Shown here one piece after another: positions 36,813 through 49,246 of a stretch of DNA of 64,000 nt (positions are counted from its first letter, which is position 1; every line of letters begins with the position of its first letter). The position numbers and the translations under genes are program-made. The notes below the pieces were generated by a model. It worked only from the letters and a program-made list of their open reading frames with translations, did no database searches and was not told the DNA's origin. Source of the DNA: Bacteroidia bacterium (lineage in GTDB: Bacteria > Bacteroidota > Bacteroidia > Bacteroidales > GWA2-32-17); the NCBI GenBank assembly GCA_016218155.1, contig JACREQ010000105.1, positions 1-64,000 of the forward strand. The letters are read 5' to 3'.

Positions 36813-39800
36813 ATGAAACTATTATTTTATTTAGTATTATTTTGCTTAGTTTCTTTTGGTTTCTTTGAAACTAGTAATGCTCAGGTTACAATTTCAACTA
36901 TGAATAATCCTGCAAGTTTTTTTGTAGATCAATTAGTTGGATCTGGAGTAACATATTCTAATGCAACTTTCAGTAATACCGGAGCTGCATATGCAAGCAC
37001 TTCATCATCAAATTATGGACTATTTAACAATGCATCCTCTGTTATTGGAATTAGTAATGGTATAATTTTATCAACAGGAAATGTTTTAGGTGCACCTGGT
37101 CCAAACTCCTTAGCTGATATGTCTACTGTAAATGTAAGAGGCGGAGATGGTACTTTAAATTCTATTATATCTCCTACATACGATGCAATGGGTCTTGAAT
37201 TTGATTTTGTTCCTGAATCTAACGTAATCACATTCAGATATGTTTTTGCTTCTGAAGAATATAATGAATTTGTTGGCGATATTTATAATGATGTTTTTGG
37301 TTTCTTTGTTACTGGGGGTCCAGAAGCTTATTCAAATAAAAATATTGCAATTGTTCCAGGTACTGGAACTACACCGGTTGCAATTAATTCTGTAAATAAT
37401 GGATATGGCGCAGCCGGATCAACTGGTGGTGGATGTACAAACTGCTCTTACTACAGGGATAATGGTGTCAGTGCATATAATCTACAATATGATGGCTTTA
37501 CAACTGTATTAACTGCAACTTGTAGTGTAACACCATGTGCAGTATATCACATGAAAATAATTATTGCAGATGTTTCAGACTATGTTTATGACTCCGGAGT
37601 TTTTCTAGAGTCAGGAAGCTTTACAAGCCCTTCAATAAATCAAATAGATGTTGCATACTCAAATCCCCTTGCCGGTGGAAATGCTGCAATGGTTGAAGGT
37701 TGCAGCAATGGACAAATAACATTTGGATTAACAAGTCCAACTCCTTTTAACAGAAATATTCCATTTGCAATAGCAGGATCAGCTACTTTTGGAACAGATT
37801 ATTATACCATTCCTGATATTTCTGGAACATGGTCGGCACCAAACAATTATTTTGTAACAATCCCTGCTGGTCAATCAACAACAACTCTAACAATAGTCCC
37901 AATAAACGAGGGAACTGTTGAATCTTCTGAAAACATTGACTTTACAATACAAACAAATTTATGCGGAACACCAGTAGTTCAGAATGGTTCTTTAAATATT
38001 CTGGATAATTCAACTCCATTTTCAAGTACAATAACAGCAGATCAGACAATATGTCTGGGGAATAATGCAACTATTGGACTAAATATTAATGGAGGACAAA
38101 ATCCTATTTCATATACCTGGAATCCTACCGGATATACCACTGGCACAATAACAGTAAACCCACCGGCTAACCAAACATATACTGTAACTGCTACTGACGC
38201 ATGCGGTTCAACAACTACCGGAACAACAACAGTGAATGTTAACAATATACCAACTGTTGTTCCATTTCCAACATCTGAAACTTTTTGTAGTGGCTCAACT
38301 ACAAACATTGCTCTTTCTTCTGCTGTTACCGGAGCTACATTCAACTGGACTGTTAATGCCGGTGCAAATATTTCAGGCGCGTCATCTGGTTCTGATATTA
38401 CAATTTCACAAACTTTGATAAATTCAGGAACAACTCAGGAAAGTGTTACATATACTGTTACCCCTTCTGCAAACGGATGTAGCGGTCCTCCAACAGACAT
38501 AACGATTTATGTAAATCCGAGTCCAACAGCAACTGCAACTACAACTCCGGTAACCACTTGTTCTGGCACCCCTGACGGTTCTATAACAATTAATGCAACA
38601 GGTGGAACAGCTCCTTTAAATTATTCTCTTGATGGCGGTGCAACAGGAACAAATAATATTTTCTCCAATTTAGGCATTGGTGGTCATACTGCTATTATTA
38701 CCGATGCTGCTGGTTGTCAGTTTACATTAAGTAATATTGATATTGCAGGAAATACAGGAATATCTATCACAAGCATTACACCTATAGATGTAAATTGTTA
38801 TGGAGAAAACTCAGGAAGCTTAACTATTACAGCCCCAGGTGCAACTCAGTATAGCATAAATAACGGAACCGACTGGTTCCCAACAAATACTTTTAACAGC
38901 TTAACCGCAGGCACATATAATGTAGTGGTAAGTGATGCCGGCAACTGTCAGGATGCACAAAGTATTACTATCTCATCACCTTCAATTATAGTTATTGACT
39001 CTACGGTTACCAACATGCTCTGCACAGTATTAGGAGATGCTACATTATCAGTAAATGGTGGCGTTACTCCATATTCATATACATGGTTTGACAGTACAAC
39101 TTTACCATCTCACAATAATTTAACAAATGGCACTTATTTAGTTACTGTTTCAGACTCACATTCATGTACCGTAATAACATCTGTTATTGTTGGCTATGAT
39201 GATGGCAATTTAAGTTTACAAAATAACATTTCAAACATATCCTGTCATGGTGACTCTACCGGGAATATTTCACTGATAGTGCAAAACGGAACATCACCAT
39301 TTGTTGCAACATGGTCAGGAATTACAAATACCAGCTTAACCTTATCAGGATTAGGTGCAGGCACATATGACGTTACTGTTACTGACATAAACGGATGTAC
39401 AGTAAACTCTTCCATAAATATTGTTGAACCTTCACAAATTTCTTTAGACTCTTCAGTGATTAATCATACTTGCGGAACACTAGGAAGCATAACAATCACT
39501 CCTTCAGGCGGAACCCCAGGATATTTATATTATTGGAATACTCCCGGTTCAACTGCAATGTTAAATAATTTACCTGCTGGTATTTATACTGTAACGGTTA
39601 CAGATGCATTAAACTGTTCTGCTACAACAAATGCAGAGGTTGGACTTATCACAACTTCTGGTATTGGGCAATCAACAATAACTAACGTTCAATGCAATGG
39701 AGAATCAAACGGAGCTGCAACTATAACTATTACAAATGGTATAGCACCATTTTCATGCATATGGCAGCATGATGTTACAAATACAACCAATACGGCATCA

Positions 39801-40631
39801 AATCTTTCAGCAGGAAATTACCTCGTTACAGTAACTGATACTTATGGTGCCTGTGTGGTACCATTATCAATAGAAATAACACAACCATCTACTTTAACAA
39901 TTAGTCCAATTATTACACATATTACTTGCAACAACTTAAATAATGGAGTAATTGTAGCAAATGCATCTGGAGGAACAATTCCATATCAGTATAACTGGTC
40001 TAACAATTTAACAACAGCAAGTTTAACAAATCTTCCTGAAGGAGATTATGATTTAACAATAACAGATGGCAATAATTGTATTGATTCTGTTTTAAATATT
40101 AATATTACAAACCCAACTGCTCTTACTATTTCAACATCATTCATTAATCCTACTTTTTTCAACTCTACTGACGGAGCAGCCACTGTTTATACTAATGGAG
40201 GAACCTTACCATACTCATATAGCTGGTCAACAGGACAAACTACACAAATAATTACAAGTATCGGAAATGGTTTATATATTGTTACGGTAACCGATTTTAA
40301 CAATTGTAATGAAATTGACACAATTTTAATAGACGTTCCTGAATTACCTGTTGAAATTCCAACAGTAATAACTCCTAACGGTGATGGGAAAAATGATGAT
40401 TTTGAAATCACAAATATTCTTGGTTACAGTGATATTTCAGTAGAAATATTTAACAGATGGGGAGATAAAATATTTTCATTTACAGGTTCTGGTCTTGAAT
40501 ATACAACTAGTTCAAACAGGTGGAACGGAACAAGAAAAGGAAAAGATTTACCCATGGGATCATACATTTTTATTATAAAACTAAACAACGGAAGAGAACC
40601 TGTAACAGGAGTTGTCTCAATAATCCGCTAA
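36813..40631 (+). CDS. Choice-of-anchor L / SprB-repeat surface protein with CHU_C (type B) sorting domain
   Basis: A large surface protein of 1272 residues. It begins with a signal peptide (about 1-24, ending SNAQ). The choice-of-anchor L domain spans about 30-260, with GISNGIILSTGNVLGAPGPN and ITFRYVFASEEYNEF. A Calx-beta-like and PKD-like stretch follows (about 270-580). About eight SprB repeats of some 75 residues (about 590-1160) share the .NC.GE..G core, PYSY.W and GTY.VTVTD motifs. The C-terminus is the gliding-motility type (CHU_C) domain, with VITPNGDGKNDDFEI and IFNRWGDKIF. This tail is the type B T9SS signal. It is likely an adhesin or filament subunit. It has its own consensus promoter and a terminator. 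Confidence 0.92.
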   Translation: MKLLFYLVLFCLVSFGFFETSNAQVTISTMNNPASFFVDQLVGSGVTYSNATFSNTGAAYASTSSSNYGLFNNASSVIGISNGIILSTGNVLGAPGPNSLADMSTVNVRGGDGTLNSIISPTYDAMGLEFDFVPESNVITFRYVFASEEYNEFVGDIYNDVFGFFVTGGPEAYSNKNIAIVPGTGTTPVAINSVNNGYGAAGSTGGGCTNCSYYRDNGVSAYNLQYDGFTTVLTATCSVTPCAVYHMKIIIADVSDYVYDSGVFLESGSFTSPSINQIDVAYSNPLAGGNAAMVEGCSNGQITFGLTSPTPFNRNIPFAIAGSATFGTDYYTIPDISGTWSAPNNYFVTIPAGQSTTTLTIVPINEGTVESSENIDFTIQTNLCGTPVVQNGSLNILDNSTPFSSTITADQTICLGNNATIGLNINGGQNPISYTWNPTGYTTGTITVNPPANQTYTVTATDACGSTTTGTTTVNVNNIPTVVPFPTSETFCSGSTTNIALSSAVTGATFNWTVNAGANISGASSGSDITISQTLINSGTTQESVTYTVTPSANGCSGPPTDITIYVNPSPTATATTTPVTTCSGTPDGSITINATGGTAPLNYSLDGGATGTNNIFSNLGIGGHTAIITDAAGCQFTLSNIDIAGNTGISITSITPIDVNCYGENSGSLTITAPGATQYSINNGTDWFPTNTFNSLTAGTYNVVVSDAGNCQDAQSITISSPSIIVIDSTVTNMLCTVLGDATLSVNGGVTPYSYTWFDSTTLPSHNNLTNGTYLVTVSDSHSCTVITSVIVGYDDGNLSLQNNISNISCHGDSTGNISLIVQNGTSPFVATWSGITNTSLTLSGLGAGTYDVTVTDINGCTVNSSINIVEPSQISLDSSVINHTCGTLGSITITPSGGTPGYLYYWNTPGSTAMLNNLPAGIYTVTVTDALNCSATTNAEVGLITTSGIGQSTITNVQCNGESNGAATITITNGIAPFSCIWQHDVTNTTNTASNLSAGNYLVTVTDTYGACVVPLSIEITQPSTLTISPIITHITCNNLNNGVIVANASGGTIPYQYNWSNNLTTASLTNLPEGDYDLTITDGNNCIDSVLNINITNPTALTISTSFINPTFFNSTDGAATVYTNGGTLPYSYSWSTGQTTQIITSIGNGLYIVTVTDFNNCNEIDTILIDVPELPVEIPTVITPNGDGKNDDFEITNILGYSDISVEIFNRWGDKIFSFTGSGLEYTTSSNRWNGTRKGKDLPMGSYIFIIKLNNGREPVTGVVSIIR

Positions 40632-42847: not shown

Positions 42848-42878
42848 TTTGTTCATTTCAGATAAATATTTAAATTTG
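42848..42878 (+). promoter_or_regulatory. Bacteroidota-type promoter of the M28-like gene
   Basis: TTTG (42848-42851), a 19-base spacer and TAAATTTG (42871-42878) match the consensus TTTG-N19-TAnnTTTG exactly. The ATG at 42904 lies 26 bases beyond. Confidence 0.75.
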
Positions 42879-42903: not shown

Positions 42904-45801
42904 ATGATAAACAATAATATTGGATGGCATGCTCTAATGACTGATTTCACGTTGTTACACAGCGAAGGAAATTTTCCCCTGCAGGCTTATTCAGAATTTA
43001 TGCCTCCGCCAAGAGTGGGTATTTCGCCATATGGAGAAATTGATTACAACATTTTTTCAAAAAACGATGAATATGGATGGCATATTTCTGAACTTGAGGA
43101 AGAAAGCGAGCTAAAGCCTGGCATAGTGCATATTGGGGAACAAATAATGCATCAAATTATAAAACTTGGGAAAGGTGAAACCGTAAATCATATTGCTGGG
43201 CATCAACATCATAACCTTACGAACAATGTGTACTGGCCTGATGAATTATCAAAAAATGCAGGAAAGTTTGTAAATGAGAAATTTGTAGTTTTTTTACCCC
43301 TTGTATTTTCTAAAACACAAGATGATAAAGGAAGAGTAAGATGGACTTTTTTTGGTGGAAGCGAACAGGGGCCTGAAAAAGCATTCTGGAAAAGCTTTTA
43401 TAATTCGCCAGACAACGAAAAAGATGAAACAGATTCTTTAAATTATATTCAAAATATTATTAAAGATGCATTTGGTGAAAATTTTATTGATAATATTAAT
43501 TTAAACGACTGTGGCTTTAAAGTTTTACCAACTTCTTCATGCACTTCCCTTCCATCATGGACTAAACAATATATAATAAAAGAAACTGATTCATTTGAAA
43601 ACGTAAAATATCTATTAACTTTTAAACCATTTTCTGAGCTACCACAACAATTAAAAGAACAATATTTACAAGGTAAAACTGCACTTTTACCATTTCCGGG
43701 AAGCTTAGTTTTCTGGGGAATGCCAACGTATAATAAATTAAAACATGAACTACCCACTGCCCAGCAAATTTCATTATTAAAACTTGTTGCCAGACACAGT
43801 GGTAACGGAGGAGTACGTGTACCTCAATCTGGATGGTTACATGAACCTCATCCAGATATAAAAGAAAAAGATATTCATCTGAACCTTGTTAATAACACAT
43901 ATCACCGTACACATCGTTGGCAAAGAATCCATAAACATGAAGATGAATTATTACAAACACCAAGAGCTGATAAACTTATTAAAATTCTTTTTAGCACAGA
44001 CTTAGACACTATAGGACTTTACGATAAGCCACTTGCCAGAAATTGCCAATTATGGACTAATGACTACAAACTAATAATTGACGGACCAAAAGCAAAACGA
44101 ATTAATATTTTGCACGCAGAAACACATTTAGCAAAAGGAGGTTTATTTGGTTATCGGTTTCTTTTTCCACCAATGCAAGTTGGATTATATGAAGTGTACT
44201 GGCACAGACCATTAGTTGCTTATCTGTCGTCGAAAACAAATGAAATAACTATACAGTCTGAAAGTTTAAATGGATATTTTACTGCGTATAATATTCAAGA
44301 TAAAAACATTAATAATGTTATTGAACTCTGGCCAAGATTATTAAAAAGGAAATCTCATTTAACAGCAATATATTCTCTTGACCGAAAACATGATCATTAC
44401 CACCACCAGACAGCTCATAACATTATAACATTAATTGACAAGTTTCATGAATTAGGAGAAAAAAAGTTAAGCAGAGAATTTGCAAGACATTTGTTACAAA
44501 TAAGCAAACATGAATCTTTAGATCAATGGTTAAGGGAGATTGCCGTAAAAGCAACAAATAAAGCAGATGGAGAATTTTTGTTAAAAGAAGTTGAAAAAGT
44601 TATTGAAAGCAAAGAAGCAGTCAACACATTACCAGAATCTATAACATTTAACAAAACAGCAAATAGAAAATTTGAAGAATCGTGGTGGAATGACATTAAT
44701 TTTTTAGCTCATGGTGCATTTATAAATAAAGACAACGCAGATTGTGTTCAAGACGATCCTACTTTAACAAATATTACACATAAGAAAAGAGATTTGGAAC
44801 CGTTAGGTGATTACCTTTTAGACAGACACAAGAAAGCAATTTCAGAAGCTAAGATGGAAGGCATTGCACTTTGTGGCGAAACACCTTTTAAATGGGACAC
44901 CGATTTTTCATTTGATGCATTTGGTGGCTGGAGAATGAATCAGGAAGGAAAAACATATGAAAGAAATATTCTTGTAATAATTCCGGGCAAAAACAGAAAT
45001 GAAGCAGTTATTATGGGGGATCATTACGATACTGCTTATATGGAAGATGTTTATGATAAAGATAACGGAGGCACAGGTGCACGGCTTTCTGCAAAAGGAG
45101 CTGATGATAATTACTCCGCATCCTCTACTTTGTTACAGGCAGCACCAATTTTTCTTGAGATGTCTAAAAAAGGGCTTTTAGAAAGAGATGTTTGGCTTAT
45201 GCACATTACAGGAGAAGAATTTCCTTCTGATTGTTTGGGTGCCAGATTTTTCTGTCGTTCAATAATTGAAAAGACTTTAAAATTACATTTAGGAAACGAA
45301 AAATATATTGACCTTTCATCAACAAAAATAGTAGGTGCATTTATTATGGATATGATTGGTCATAATAAAGATACAGATCGTGACATTTTTCAGATATCTC
45401 CGGGAAAAAGTGTTGAATCAACAAAAATTGCTTATCAGGCACATATTGCAAATCTAATGTGGAATCAGTTAGCGTATAAGTTAAACTGTAATTCTGCAAG
45501 AAGTAATTTAAACCGAGGTAAAAGAAGTACTGATGGTATTACAATTCCTGAGGTTGCAAAGCATTTACCATTAATGGGTGAGGTTAGAACAAAATTACAC
45601 ACTCATAGTTCATTGTACAATACTGATTGTCAGATTTTATCGGACGTAGGCATACCTGTAGTTTTATTTATGGAAAACTATGACTTACATCGCACAGGTT
45701 ACCATGATACTCACGATACAATGGAGAACATTGACCTTGACTACGGTGCTGCTTTTGCTGCTATTTGCATTGAAACAGTAGCAAGGGTTGCTACGCAATA
45801 A
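42904..45801 (+). CDS. Large protein with C-terminal M28-family zinc peptidase-like domain
   Basis: A protein of 965 residues. Its C-terminal part (about 640-965) carries the full M28 aminopeptidase ligand set: H707 and D709 (GDHYDTAY), D734/D735 (KGADDNYSAS), E771/E772 (TGEEFPSDCLG), D816 (IMDMIGHNKD) and H937 (THDTMENID). It should be an active two-zinc exopeptidase. About 600 residues before it match no family I know; they are rich in aromatic residues and His, with an acidic, soluble profile. There is no signal peptide, so a cytoplasmic location is likely. The gene has its own promoter, is divergent from the SpoIIE gene and stands alone. Confidence 0.8.
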   Translation: MINNNIGWHALMTDFTLLHSEGNFPLQAYSEFMPPPRVGISPYGEIDYNIFSKNDEYGWHISELEEESELKPGIVHIGEQIMHQIIKLGKGETVNHIAGHQHHNLTNNVYWPDELSKNAGKFVNEKFVVFLPLVFSKTQDDKGRVRWTFFGGSEQGPEKAFWKSFYNSPDNEKDETDSLNYIQNIIKDAFGENFIDNINLNDCGFKVLPTSSCTSLPSWTKQYIIKETDSFENVKYLLTFKPFSELPQQLKEQYLQGKTALLPFPGSLVFWGMPTYNKLKHELPTAQQISLLKLVARHSGNGGVRVPQSGWLHEPHPDIKEKDIHLNLVNNTYHRTHRWQRIHKHEDELLQTPRADKLIKILFSTDLDTIGLYDKPLARNCQLWTNDYKLIIDGPKAKRINILHAETHLAKGGLFGYRFLFPPMQVGLYEVYWHRPLVAYLSSKTNEITIQSESLNGYFTAYNIQDKNINNVIELWPRLLKRKSHLTAIYSLDRKHDHYHHQTAHNIITLIDKFHELGEKKLSREFARHLLQISKHESLDQWLREIAVKATNKADGEFLLKEVEKVIESKEAVNTLPESITFNKTANRKFEESWWNDINFLAHGAFINKDNADCVQDDPTLTNITHKKRDLEPLGDYLLDRHKKAISEAKMEGIALCGETPFKWDTDFSFDAFGGWRMNQEGKTYERNILVIIPGKNRNEAVIMGDHYDTAYMEDVYDKDNGGTGARLSAKGADDNYSASSTLLQAAPIFLEMSKKGLLERDVWLMHITGEEFPSDCLGARFFCRSIIEKTLKLHLGNEKYIDLSSTKIVGAFIMDMIGHNKDTDRDIFQISPGKSVESTKIAYQAHIANLMWNQLAYKLNCNSARSNLNRGKRSTDGITIPEVAKHLPLMGEVRTKLHTHSSLYNTDCQILSDVGIPVVLFMENYDLHRTGYHDTHDTMENIDLDYGAAFAAICIETVARVATQ

Positions 45802-46119: not shown

Positions 46120-47577
46120 ATGGGCAAGTTAAATCATTTGAATCCTACGCAAGTATGGGAAAATTTTGAAGCGTTGTGTAATATTCCTCATCCTTCAAAA
46201 AAAGAAGAAAAGATAATTCAGTACATGAAAGAGTTTGGCGAAAAACTCGGTTTAAAAACTATTGTTGATGAAGTTGGAAACGTAATAATTAAAAAACCTG
46301 CAACTCCTGGTATGGAAAACAGAAGAGGAATTATTATGCAGGGACACCTTGATATGGTTCCACAAAAAAACAGCGATAAAGTTCACGATTTCGAAAAAGA
46401 TCCTATTGTACCTTGGATTGATGGTGAATGGGTAAAAGCTACAGGCACTACTTTGGGTGCAGATAATGGATTAGGTGTTGCAGCAGCAATGGCAGTAATG
46501 CAGGCAAAAGATTTTGCTCATGGTCCTGTTGAATGTTTATTTACTGTTGATGAAGAAACCGGAATGACAGGTGCCTTTGAATTAAAACCAGGTCTGCTTG
46601 ATGGCGATATTCTTTTAAATCTTGACTCTGAAGATGAAGGTGAACTATATGTTGGTTGTGCAGGCGGTATTGATGCCAGTATCAAATTTCATTATACAGA
46701 AGAAGCAGTTCCTTCAAATCATGTAGCTTATAAACTTTCTATAACTGGTTTAAAAGGTGGTCACTCTGGTTTGGAAATTATTCTTTACAGAGGAAACTCA
46801 AACAAGTTAATGAACAGATTCTTTAAATATGCTCAGAAAGAATTTAGCTTAAGAATTGCTACAATTGATGGCGGAAGTTTAAGAAATGCTATTCCTCGCG
46901 AATCATTTGCAACAGTTGTTATACCTGTTGAAAAAGAAGCAGCATTTGCAAAAGGTATTTCTTCTTTTGAATCAATTGTTAAGAAAGAATTTTCAGATGC
47001 AGATCCTGATTTTAAATTTGCCGCTGAGAAAACAGCAATGCCTGCAAACATAATTGATTTGAAAACACAAACAGAATTAATTAATGCTGTTTATGCTTGT
47101 CCAAATGGAGTTATTCGTATGAGTGATTCAATGCCAGGACTAGTTGAAACTTCAACAAATTTAGCAATAGTAAAATCTGCAAATGGTGTAATTTCTATTG
47201 CATGTTTACTTCGCAGTTCAGTTGATTCTGCTAAAGAAGATTTGGTAGAGGCTATTCACAGTACTTTTGCAATGACAAGTGCAAAAATAGAATTTGAAGG
47301 CGGTTACCCTGGATGGAAACCAAATATGAATTCAGCAATCTTAAAAACTGCTGGTGAAGTTTATCAGAAAAAATTTGGCAAAGTACCAGATATTAAAGCA
47401 ATTCATGCAGGACTAGAATGCGGTTTACTTGGTGGAGTTTATCCTAACTGGGATATGATTTCTTTCGGACCAACTATTCGATACCCACATTCTCCAGATG
47501 AAAAAGCAAACATTCCTTCTGTACAAAAATTCTGGGATTTCTTAGTTGAAGTTCTTAAAAATGCACCATTGAAATAA
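46120..47577 (+). CDS. pepD: Aminoacyl-histidine dipeptidase (M20/PepD)
   Basis: A cytoplasmic zinc peptidase of 485 residues that cleaves Xaa-His dipeptides such as carnosine analogues. M20 ligands and motifs are present: GHLDMVPQKN, TTLGADNGLGVAAAMAV, TVDEETGMTGAFEL, NLDSEDEGELYVGCAGG and HAGLECGLLGGVYP. Length and order match PepD. It ends with two terminator-like hairpins before the MFS gene. Start chosen at MGKLNHLNPTQVWENF. Confidence 0.94.
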   Translation: MGKLNHLNPTQVWENFEALCNIPHPSKKEEKIIQYMKEFGEKLGLKTIVDEVGNVIIKKPATPGMENRRGIIMQGHLDMVPQKNSDKVHDFEKDPIVPWIDGEWVKATGTTLGADNGLGVAAAMAVMQAKDFAHGPVECLFTVDEETGMTGAFELKPGLLDGDILLNLDSEDEGELYVGCAGGIDASIKFHYTEEAVPSNHVAYKLSITGLKGGHSGLEIILYRGNSNKLMNRFFKYAQKEFSLRIATIDGGSLRNAIPRESFATVVIPVEKEAAFAKGISSFESIVKKEFSDADPDFKFAAEKTAMPANIIDLKTQTELINAVYACPNGVIRMSDSMPGLVETSTNLAIVKSANGVISIACLLRSSVDSAKEDLVEAIHSTFAMTSAKIEFEGGYPGWKPNMNSAILKTAGEVYQKKFGKVPDIKAIHAGLECGLLGGVYPNWDMISFGPTIRYPHSPDEKANIPSVQKFWDFLVEVLKNAPLK

Positions 47578-47848: not shown

Positions 47849-49246
47849 ATGGTTGAAAAAATTCAAAAGACCTTAAGAGACAGTAAAGCTGCTCGTTGGA
47901 CAGCTTTAGCAGTTGTAGCATTTACAATGCTTTGCGGTTATTACTTAGCAGATGTTATGGCTCCCTTAAGTGGACTTTTAGAGCAACAATTACATTGGAA
48001 TAGTGAAGAATATGGTTTTTTCACAAGTGCATATGGTTGGTTTAATGTATTTTTATTTTTCTTAATTATCGGAGGTATTATACTCGATAAAATGGGGGTT
48101 CGTTTTACAGGTTTAATGGCCACCATAATAATGGTTGTCGGAATTGGATTAAAATATTGGGCTGTATCAACAACATCACTTGACGGAGTTGTTATTTTTG
48201 GATGGAAAGGTCAGGTAATGCTTGCCGCACTTGGTTTTGCAATTTTTGGTGTTGGTATTGAGGTTGCCGGAATTACAGTATCTAAAATTATAGTAAAATG
48301 GTTTAAAGGAAAAGAAATGGCTCTTGCAATGGGTCTGGAAATGGCAACTGCAAGAATCGGTACTGGTCTGGCAATTGGTACATCACTTCCTATAGCAAAA
48401 TACTTTGGTACAGTTTCAATGCCTCTGCTTTTTGGATTAGTAATGGCTTGTATTGGATTAATCGCTTTTATTTTATATACATTCCAAGACAGAAAACTTG
48501 ATATTTCTCAAGCAGCTTTTGACAAACAAAATGCTGTTGAAAATACAGAAGAAGCATTTAGTGTTAAAGACATATTAAAAATAGTTACAAATAAAGGCTG
48601 GTGGTATATTGCATTACTTTGTGTTTTGTTTTACTCTGCAGTATTCCCATTCCTTAAATATGCCACTGATTTAATGATTCAAAAATTTCATGTTCCAGAA
48701 GATTGGGCAGGACTTATTCCAGCCTTACTCCCATTTGGAACAATTGTCTTAACTCCATTCTTTGGAAACTTATATGACCGTAAAGGTAAAGGAGCAACAA
48801 TCATGATTATTGGTTCCCTTTTATTAATATTTGTTCATACAATGTTCTCCATTCCATTTTTAAGTCATTGGTTAGTTGCAATAATATTAACAATTATTCT
48901 AGGAATAGGGTTCTCTTTAGTACCTTCTGCAATGTGGCCTTCAGTACCTAAAATTATACCTGAAAACCAATTGGGAACAGCATACTCTTTAATCTTCTGG
49001 GTACAAAACTGGGGATTAATGGGTGTACCTTATTTAATTGGATGGGTGTTAGAAAATTATTGTGTAACTCATCGTGTTGGCGAAACTGTAGATGGAGTTG
49101 TACTAACTGCTACTCAGTTTAACTATACAATCCCAATGATGATTTTTACTACCTTAAGTGTACTTGCTTTATTAGTTTCTTTGTTACTAAAAGCCGAAGA
49201 CAAGAAAAAAGGATATGGTCTTCAACTACCAAACATCAAGAAATAA
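47849..49246 (+). CDS. Major facilitator superfamily transporter
   Basis: A 465-residue inner-membrane protein with about twelve helices and an MFS loop signature of the LDKMGVRFTG type between helices 2 and 3; a second-half copy reads NLYDRKGKGATIM. The transport direction and substrate cannot be read. Loops of note: WFKGKEMALAMGLEMATARI (substrate-path helix) and SAMWPSVPKIIPENQLGTAY. It sits after pepD, perhaps related to peptide or amino-acid metabolism, but it is separated from it by terminators and so is an independent unit. A strong terminator follows. Confidence 0.9.
   Translation: MVEKIQKTLRDSKAARWTALAVVAFTMLCGYYLADVMAPLSGLLEQQLHWNSEEYGFFTSAYGWFNVFLFFLIIGGIILDKMGVRFTGLMATIIMVVGIGLKYWAVSTTSLDGVVIFGWKGQVMLAALGFAIFGVGIEVAGITVSKIIVKWFKGKEMALAMGLEMATARIGTGLAIGTSLPIAKYFGTVSMPLLFGLVMACIGLIAFILYTFQDRKLDISQAAFDKQNAVENTEEAFSVKDILKIVTNKGWWYIALLCVLFYSAVFPFLKYATDLMIQKFHVPEDWAGLIPALLPFGTIVLTPFFGNLYDRKGKGATIMIIGSLLLIFVHTMFSIPFLSHWLVAIILTIILGIGFSLVPSAMWPSVPKIIPENQLGTAYSLIFWVQNWGLMGVPYLIGWVLENYCVTHRVGETVDGVVLTATQFNYTIPMMIFTTLSVLALLVSLLLKAEDKKKGYGLQLPNIKK

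Follow-up and report, generated by a model that had tools for sequence, protein, structure and literature searches.

The gene at positions 42904..45801 (+ strand) of the window, a stretch of 64,000 nucleotides from a genome of the Bacteroidales, encodes a protein of 965 amino acids in which a C-terminal metallopeptidase domain of family M28 is preceded by a 572-residue N-terminal domain of predicted glutathione synthetase (GSS)-like structure. A link between this protein and a pathway encoded by a KamA-type aminomutase, two Ddl-like ligases and a GNAT acetyltransferase is well supported by the gene content and gene order of other genomes. In our preferred reading, to which we assign a probability of about 0.5, it is a cytosolic di-zinc amide hydrolase with an ATP-grasp-like N-terminal domain that works together with the KamA-Ddl1-Ddl2-GNAT pathway and cleaves its product or an intermediate.

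A conserved two-domain gene

The reading frame starts with ATG and has colinear, full-length relatives in three phyla, sharing 48-85% identity. Comparison with a relative that is 84-85% identical revealed purifying selection on both halves of the gene, with differences at codon positions 1, 2 and 3 of 0.15, 0.09 and 0.42 for the N-terminal part and 0.10, 0.03 and 0.40 for the C-terminal part. Together with the match to PF04389 described below, this establishes that the 965-residue M28-like frame first noted in a sequence-only reading is a genuine and conserved gene. Hydropathy analysis yielded no signal peptide or transmembrane helix, the maximum Kyte-Doolittle mean over 19 residues being 1.23, near the C-terminus, and the same measure revealed neither feature in the full-length relatives. 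With no sign of export, the cytoplasmic location suggested earlier for the protein is upheld. Searches of the whole protein against NCBIfam gave a single sub-threshold match and those against PDB sequences nothing useful.

A Bacteroidota-type promoter-like element, TTTG-N19-TAAATTTG, is located upstream of the gene at 42848..42878 (+) and fits the Bacteroidota -33/-7 consensus. The pattern occurs at chance frequency across the window (4 found and 5.0 expected), and the TAAATTTG box, at -33 from the start codon, is kept in two relatives of the same genus (L006 and L007). A sigma-70-type promoter is not present directly upstream of the gene, and the consensus promoter that had been attributed to it is therefore plausible in its Bacteroidota form only. 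At several other loci (L012, L014, L016, L027, L029, L031 and L034) a conserved GATTGAACAAGTATACTTAACTTCACGTTT-like stretch occurs about 50-20 bases before the M28 start codon and this differs from the TAAATTTG box of the window's genus. Apart from a tRNA, no riboswitch or other Rfam RNA of relevance was found near the M28 gene or the KamA operons.

The M28 domain and its predicted zinc site

The C-terminal domain comprises residues 573-965 (44620..45798, +). The only Pfam match of the protein, to PF04389 (Peptidase_M28), extends over residues 688-842 (E 3.1e-17, 63.4 bits against a cut-off of 21.3), and the same profile matches 26 of 26 relatives. In a Foldseek search with the full model, in which some active-site loops are of low confidence, M28 aminopeptidases ranked at the top (best E 3.9e-9) and glutaminyl cyclases were among the closest folds.

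Alignment with other M28 proteins places the predicted zinc ligands, all on the + strand, at H707 within the HxD motif H707-Y-D709 (45022..45024), at D734 within GADDN, the bridging ligand (45103..45105), at E772, which follows the predicted general base E771 (45214..45219), at D816 within MDMIGH (45349..45351) and at H934 within GYHD (45703..45705). All six residues are invariant in the 26 aligned sequences. The earlier assignment of H707, D734, E771/E772 and D816 thus stands, while its C-terminal ligand, H937, gives way to H934; H937 is replaced by Lys in most relatives and it is H934 that holds the position of the C-terminal His, in alignment with the 'YH' that five ordinary M28 proteins of other genomes have there. 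No loss of the true ligands, a finding that would have told against the assignment, occurs in any of these homologues. On profile, on ligand set and general base, and on predicted fold the protein is a member of family M28.

The proximity of the glutaminyl cyclase fold raises the question of whether the domain might be a cyclase or transferase that finishes the synthesis of a compound, and a place beside a synthetic GNAT gene, described below, would suit such a biosynthetic step. Glutaminyl cyclases use a single zinc, however, whereas this protein, like the di-zinc aminopeptidases, retains every co-catalytic ligand, H707 and D816 among them, and we consider this role very unlikely.

The N-terminal domain

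Residues 1-572 (42904..44619, +) constitute the N-terminal domain. No Pfam family matches residues 1-687, and residues 1-572 showed no match to any sequence family, to the sequence of any solved structure or to any PDB profile, which bears out, at the sequence level and for every family searched, the earlier statement that the long front part matches no known family. An AlphaFold2 model of the domain, based on a 24-sequence alignment, had a pTM of 0.79 and a mean pLDDT of 76 and is weak in its middle. When it was compared with the PDB using Foldseek, ranks 1-20 were all occupied by one superfamily (best E 3.4e-5, probability 1.00, with TM-scores of only about 0.3-0.4), the members being glutathione synthetase, the glutathionylspermidine synthase-like structure 3n6x, YjfC, YgiC and Cp1B, with nothing else near. 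A viral structure library produced no match at E <0.001, and an hhalign comparison with E. coli YgiC, YjfC and Gss was not significant (E 0.2). The domain thus has a probable GSS-type ATP-grasp fold, as judged from the model, to which the profiles were silent. The new recognition domain envisaged in the sequence-only reading is then probably not wholly new in structure, although it does remain one whose fold no sequence profile detects and that shows no visible counterpart of the usual catalytic residues.

Whether such a domain could be active is relevant to a second reading, in which the protein is a bifunctional ligase-hydrolase resembling glutathionylspermidine synthetase/amidase, with the N-terminal domain an active ATP-grasp ligase and the M28 domain breaking the same or a related amide bond. 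The model matches exclusively ligases of the glutathione synthetase, glutathionylspermidine synthase, YgiC-YjfC and Cp1B types, and Cp1B itself is catalytically active as an ATP-grasp ligase even though no sequence identity can be detected between it and the other characterised enzymes of the ATP-grasp fold (PMC12568646). Moreover, K375-P376...N380 is invariant in the N-terminal domain and loosely resembles the KP...N of YgiC, YjfC and Gss. Cp1B activity, however, requires R139, D141, E163 and N165 (PMC12568646), and an alignment of 24 N-terminal domains reveals neither an RxD nor an ExN pair among its conserved positions; the hairpin at residues 129-150, the counterpart of the RxD/ExN region of Cp1B, reads LPL..S.TQDDKGR..W..FG.S. 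The lack of any match to ATP-grasp ligases at the sequence level also argues against a bifunctional enzyme, and we hold this reading to be possible but not probable. The same tentative standing applies to its fuller version, in which a very divergent, active GSS-type ligase and an M28 hydrolase on one chain would both form and cleave amide bonds in an acetylated beta-lysine peptide, so far undescribed, that is made with KamA-Ddl-Ddl-GNAT. Catalysis by the N-terminal domain appears doubtful and, because the RxD and ExN pairs are not visible, the domain may be a module that binds but does not catalyse.

GSP_synth (PF03738) was not detected in 60 relatives, and stand-alone versions of the N-terminal domain were absent from 295 genomes of the window's class and from 149 genomes of an acidobacterial class.

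The KamA-Ddl-Ddl-GNAT partner genes

The window's own genome carries a KamA-Ddl1-Ddl2-GNAT operon (L042:8742-12527; G000:C69), on a different contig from that of the M28 gene. Directly beside the M28 gene lie genes for a dipeptidase and an MFS transporter and, because of this and of the separate contigs, the link between the protein and the pathway rests on other genomes. Among 31 M28-bearing genomes, a relative of Ddl2 is present in 28 (missing from G362, G366 and G376) and a GNAT in 29, one of them as a fragment. In 14 genomes the gene immediately downstream of M28 is the GNAT gene, and in a further 14 the GNAT gene immediately follows the Ddl pair; of the remaining three, G366 and G377 yielded no GNAT and G370 the fragment only, and the M28 gene reaches the end of its contig in both G370 and G377. 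The GNAT downstream of the M28 gene is a Pfam-identified acetyltransferase of roughly 160 amino acids, to which the GNAT of the operon on C69 is related. KamA adjoins the Ddl pair directly in the examined regions that are uncut by a contig end. In an acidobacterium (G397) there is a 4-bp overlap between the GNAT and M28 genes, and a full KamA-Ddl-Ddl-GNAT set is also present. The conserved neighbour of the M28 gene is therefore a GNAT in 14 genomes, and the partner genes lend weight to the earlier proposal that the protein acts on small modified amino acids or peptides.

Against TIGR03820, the AblA equivalog model, KamA scored 467.6 bits in the window's genome and 504.2 bits in L048, with a cut-off of 525.4; it thus falls below the lysine-2,3-aminomutase cut-off, yet lysine is the best-scoring aminomutase type. 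The GNATs matched RimI-like and similar NCBIfam models only, all below cut-off, and no AblB model. A search of one literature collection for an operon combining KamA, ATP-grasp and GNAT genes found nothing, and the set apparently represents an undescribed small-molecule pathway. From family knowledge we presume that KamA converts lysine to beta-lysine, that Ddl proteins carry out peptide ligation and that the GNAT performs N-acetylation. The substrate of KamA, what the pathway makes, hydrolysis by the M28 protein and the role of its N-terminal domain are inferred. Lysine would probably be converted to beta-lysine by KamA, the two Ddl-like ATP-grasp ligases would couple the beta-lysine to at least one amino acid, and the role of the GNAT would be to acetylate an amine; the M28 protein would most likely cut an amide bond of the product or of an intermediate, in turnover or trimming, with the N-terminal domain recognising the substrate.

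The KamA-Ddl-Ddl-GNAT operon also occurs in many acidobacterial and Bacteroidales genomes that lack the M28 gene. Its surroundings vary. In both acidobacteria examined a DUF4388 protein is encoded after the operon's GNAT (L044:5547-6752 and L046:9372-10553), and at L043:9256-9765 an Lrp/AsnC-type regulator follows the set. In a dehalococcoidial genome (L045:4467-12104) the order is MFS, KamA, Ddl, Ddl, GNAT, MarC, a second GNAT and an M20 peptidase, and the M20 and MFS families are common to this set and to the genes downstream of M28 in the window.

Neighbouring genes in the window

Downstream of the M28 gene are an M20 aminoacyl-histidine (beta-Ala-His) dipeptidase-like gene (46120..47577, +; TIGR01893, E 1.5e-182) and an MFS transporter gene (47849..49246, +; PF07690, E 1.3e-30), and their order is kept in the two genomes of the same genus (L006 and L007). 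They would fit the use of beta-lysine peptides, without proving it. They also provide a plain peptide-use context, with a PepD-like dipeptidase next in line, for a further reading in which the protein is an aminopeptidase or dipeptidase of general function in the cytosol, with no connection to KamA-Ddl-Ddl-GNAT, the co-occurrence reflecting shared ecology and gene transfer among environmental anaerobes. General aminopeptidases, however, do not carry this N-terminal domain, and the pairing of the GNAT gene with either the M28 gene or the Ddl pair across two phyla, once with a 4-bp overlap, argues against independence; we regard the reading as unlikely, and evidence bearing on it from co-occurrence and gene movement is given below.

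Elsewhere in the window, at 36813-40631, a secreted-looking repeat protein of 1272 amino acids is encoded, with a C-terminal region that by eye is of the gliding/T9SS type.

Distribution, co-occurrence and gene movement

Full-length colinear relatives were found in three of the four other genomes of the window's genus and in none of the remaining relatives searched, and no other carrier of the two-domain gene was present among 295 genomes of the window's class. A pattern scan, taking one genome per species, yielded 30 loci scattered among environmental Bacteroidales and other Bacteroidota, Acidobacteriota and Dehalococcoidia. All 30 derive from metagenome bins with names suggestive of fens, lakes and similar sites; most of the genomes used are of this kind and could lack sequence or contain that of more than one organism. 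The gene is carried by 8 of 149 genomes of an acidobacterial class and by 1 of 294 of the Dehalococcoidia class, and the tree of the M28 protein follows the phyla. At one dehalococcoidial locus (L021:2-5896) the gene lies between a gene resembling an ABC-type oligopeptide ATPase and a LarA-like gene of the lactate racemase family.

Ddl2 is also rare in the window's class. At E <1e-20 matches came from 2 of the 295 genomes, namely the window's own and one in which the match has 27% identity and lies within a 669-aa frame, so that at the ortholog level it is confined to the window's own genome (1/295). Among 60 relatives, 12 carry a clear Ddl2, including 4/4 of the M28-bearing genomes and 8/56 of the others (Fisher p 0.001, ignoring relatedness), a count that omits the window's own genome and sets the window's genus at four M28-bearing genomes. 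Strong Ddl2 matches occurred in 7/8 M28-bearing and 19/141 other genomes of the acidobacterial class sample (Fisher p 1.7e-5, again ignoring relatedness). That these tests take no account of phylogeny leaves some room for a general peptidase. Possession of the Ddl set without the M28 gene is common (8 of the 12 among the relatives) and the M28 protein would therefore be accessory to the pathway and not a required step.

In a tree of the GNATs, the M28-adjacent members form one Bacteroidales group plus the acidobacterial G397 case, and the adjacency of M28 and GNAT consequently arose at least two times, not 15; when the adjacency is mapped on the tree of the M28 proteins, a minimum of three changes is required. 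One genome assigned to the window's genus, G002, has KamA and Ddl proteins that are 80-83% identical to those of the window's genome and an M28 protein that is 57% identical. Both the M28 protein and the GNAT of G002 group with another Bacteroidales clade, with moderate supports of 90/89 and 82/87 and a long branch for L010, which suggests that the two genes moved together, an apparent joint transfer that also speaks against a general peptidase unconnected with the pathway. The GNAT gene located at the M28 gene of G002 is intact, and a second GNAT beside Ddl2 (L062:6299-6703) carries one frame change in a T-run. The idea that this second copy is a dead relic is weakened by its having a single frame change and being otherwise well conserved; a recent loss and a sequence error cannot be told apart.

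Relation to known systems

The M28 domain resembles the aminopeptidases of Aeromonas/Vibrio and Streptomyces griseus, LapA/LapB and the glutaminyl cyclases in its profile, fold, metal ligands and general base. The 965-aa protein differs from these in being much longer and lacking a signal peptide, in its extra 572-residue N-terminal domain, in insertions such as FPSD after the EE pair and in its conserved KamA-Ddl-Ddl-GNAT partner genes. Residues 1-572 share their predicted fold with E. coli Gss, YgiC and YjfC, human GSS and Cp1B and, as in Gss, domains that would be ligase-like and amide-hydrolysing occur on one chain. Nevertheless, sequence similarity to the Gss/GSS-type ligases is not detectable, their usual ATP/Mg residues were not found, and relative to Gss the domain order is reversed, with the hydrolase last and M28 in place of the cysteine amidase domain.

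For the pathway, the closest parallel is with AblA-AblB, which forms the compatible solute N-epsilon-acetyl-beta-lysine and likewise combines a lysine 2,3-aminomutase-like enzyme with an acetyltransferase. Here, however, two Ddl-like ATP-grasp ligases are added, KamA is below the AblA equivalog cut-off and the GNAT has no AblB match; we know of no counterpart of the M28 protein in the AblA-AblB pathway. The osmoprotectant N-acetylglutaminylglutamine amide (NAGGN) is a small acetylated peptide, and its system includes an ATP-grasp enzyme, a GNAT and an M42 peptidase. The enzymes and the peptidase family are different, however, and the NAGGN system is not known to include a KamA.

The results define an M28 lineage that carries a 572-residue domain and is tied to an apparently undescribed small-peptide pathway of environmental Bacteroidota, Acidobacteriota and Chloroflexota. 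A domain without a family and an orphan operon thereby become one testable system. Moreover, should the N-terminal domain prove to have an ATP-grasp fold in degenerate or altered form, it would add another ligase fold in which the usual catalytic residues are unrecognisable from sequence.
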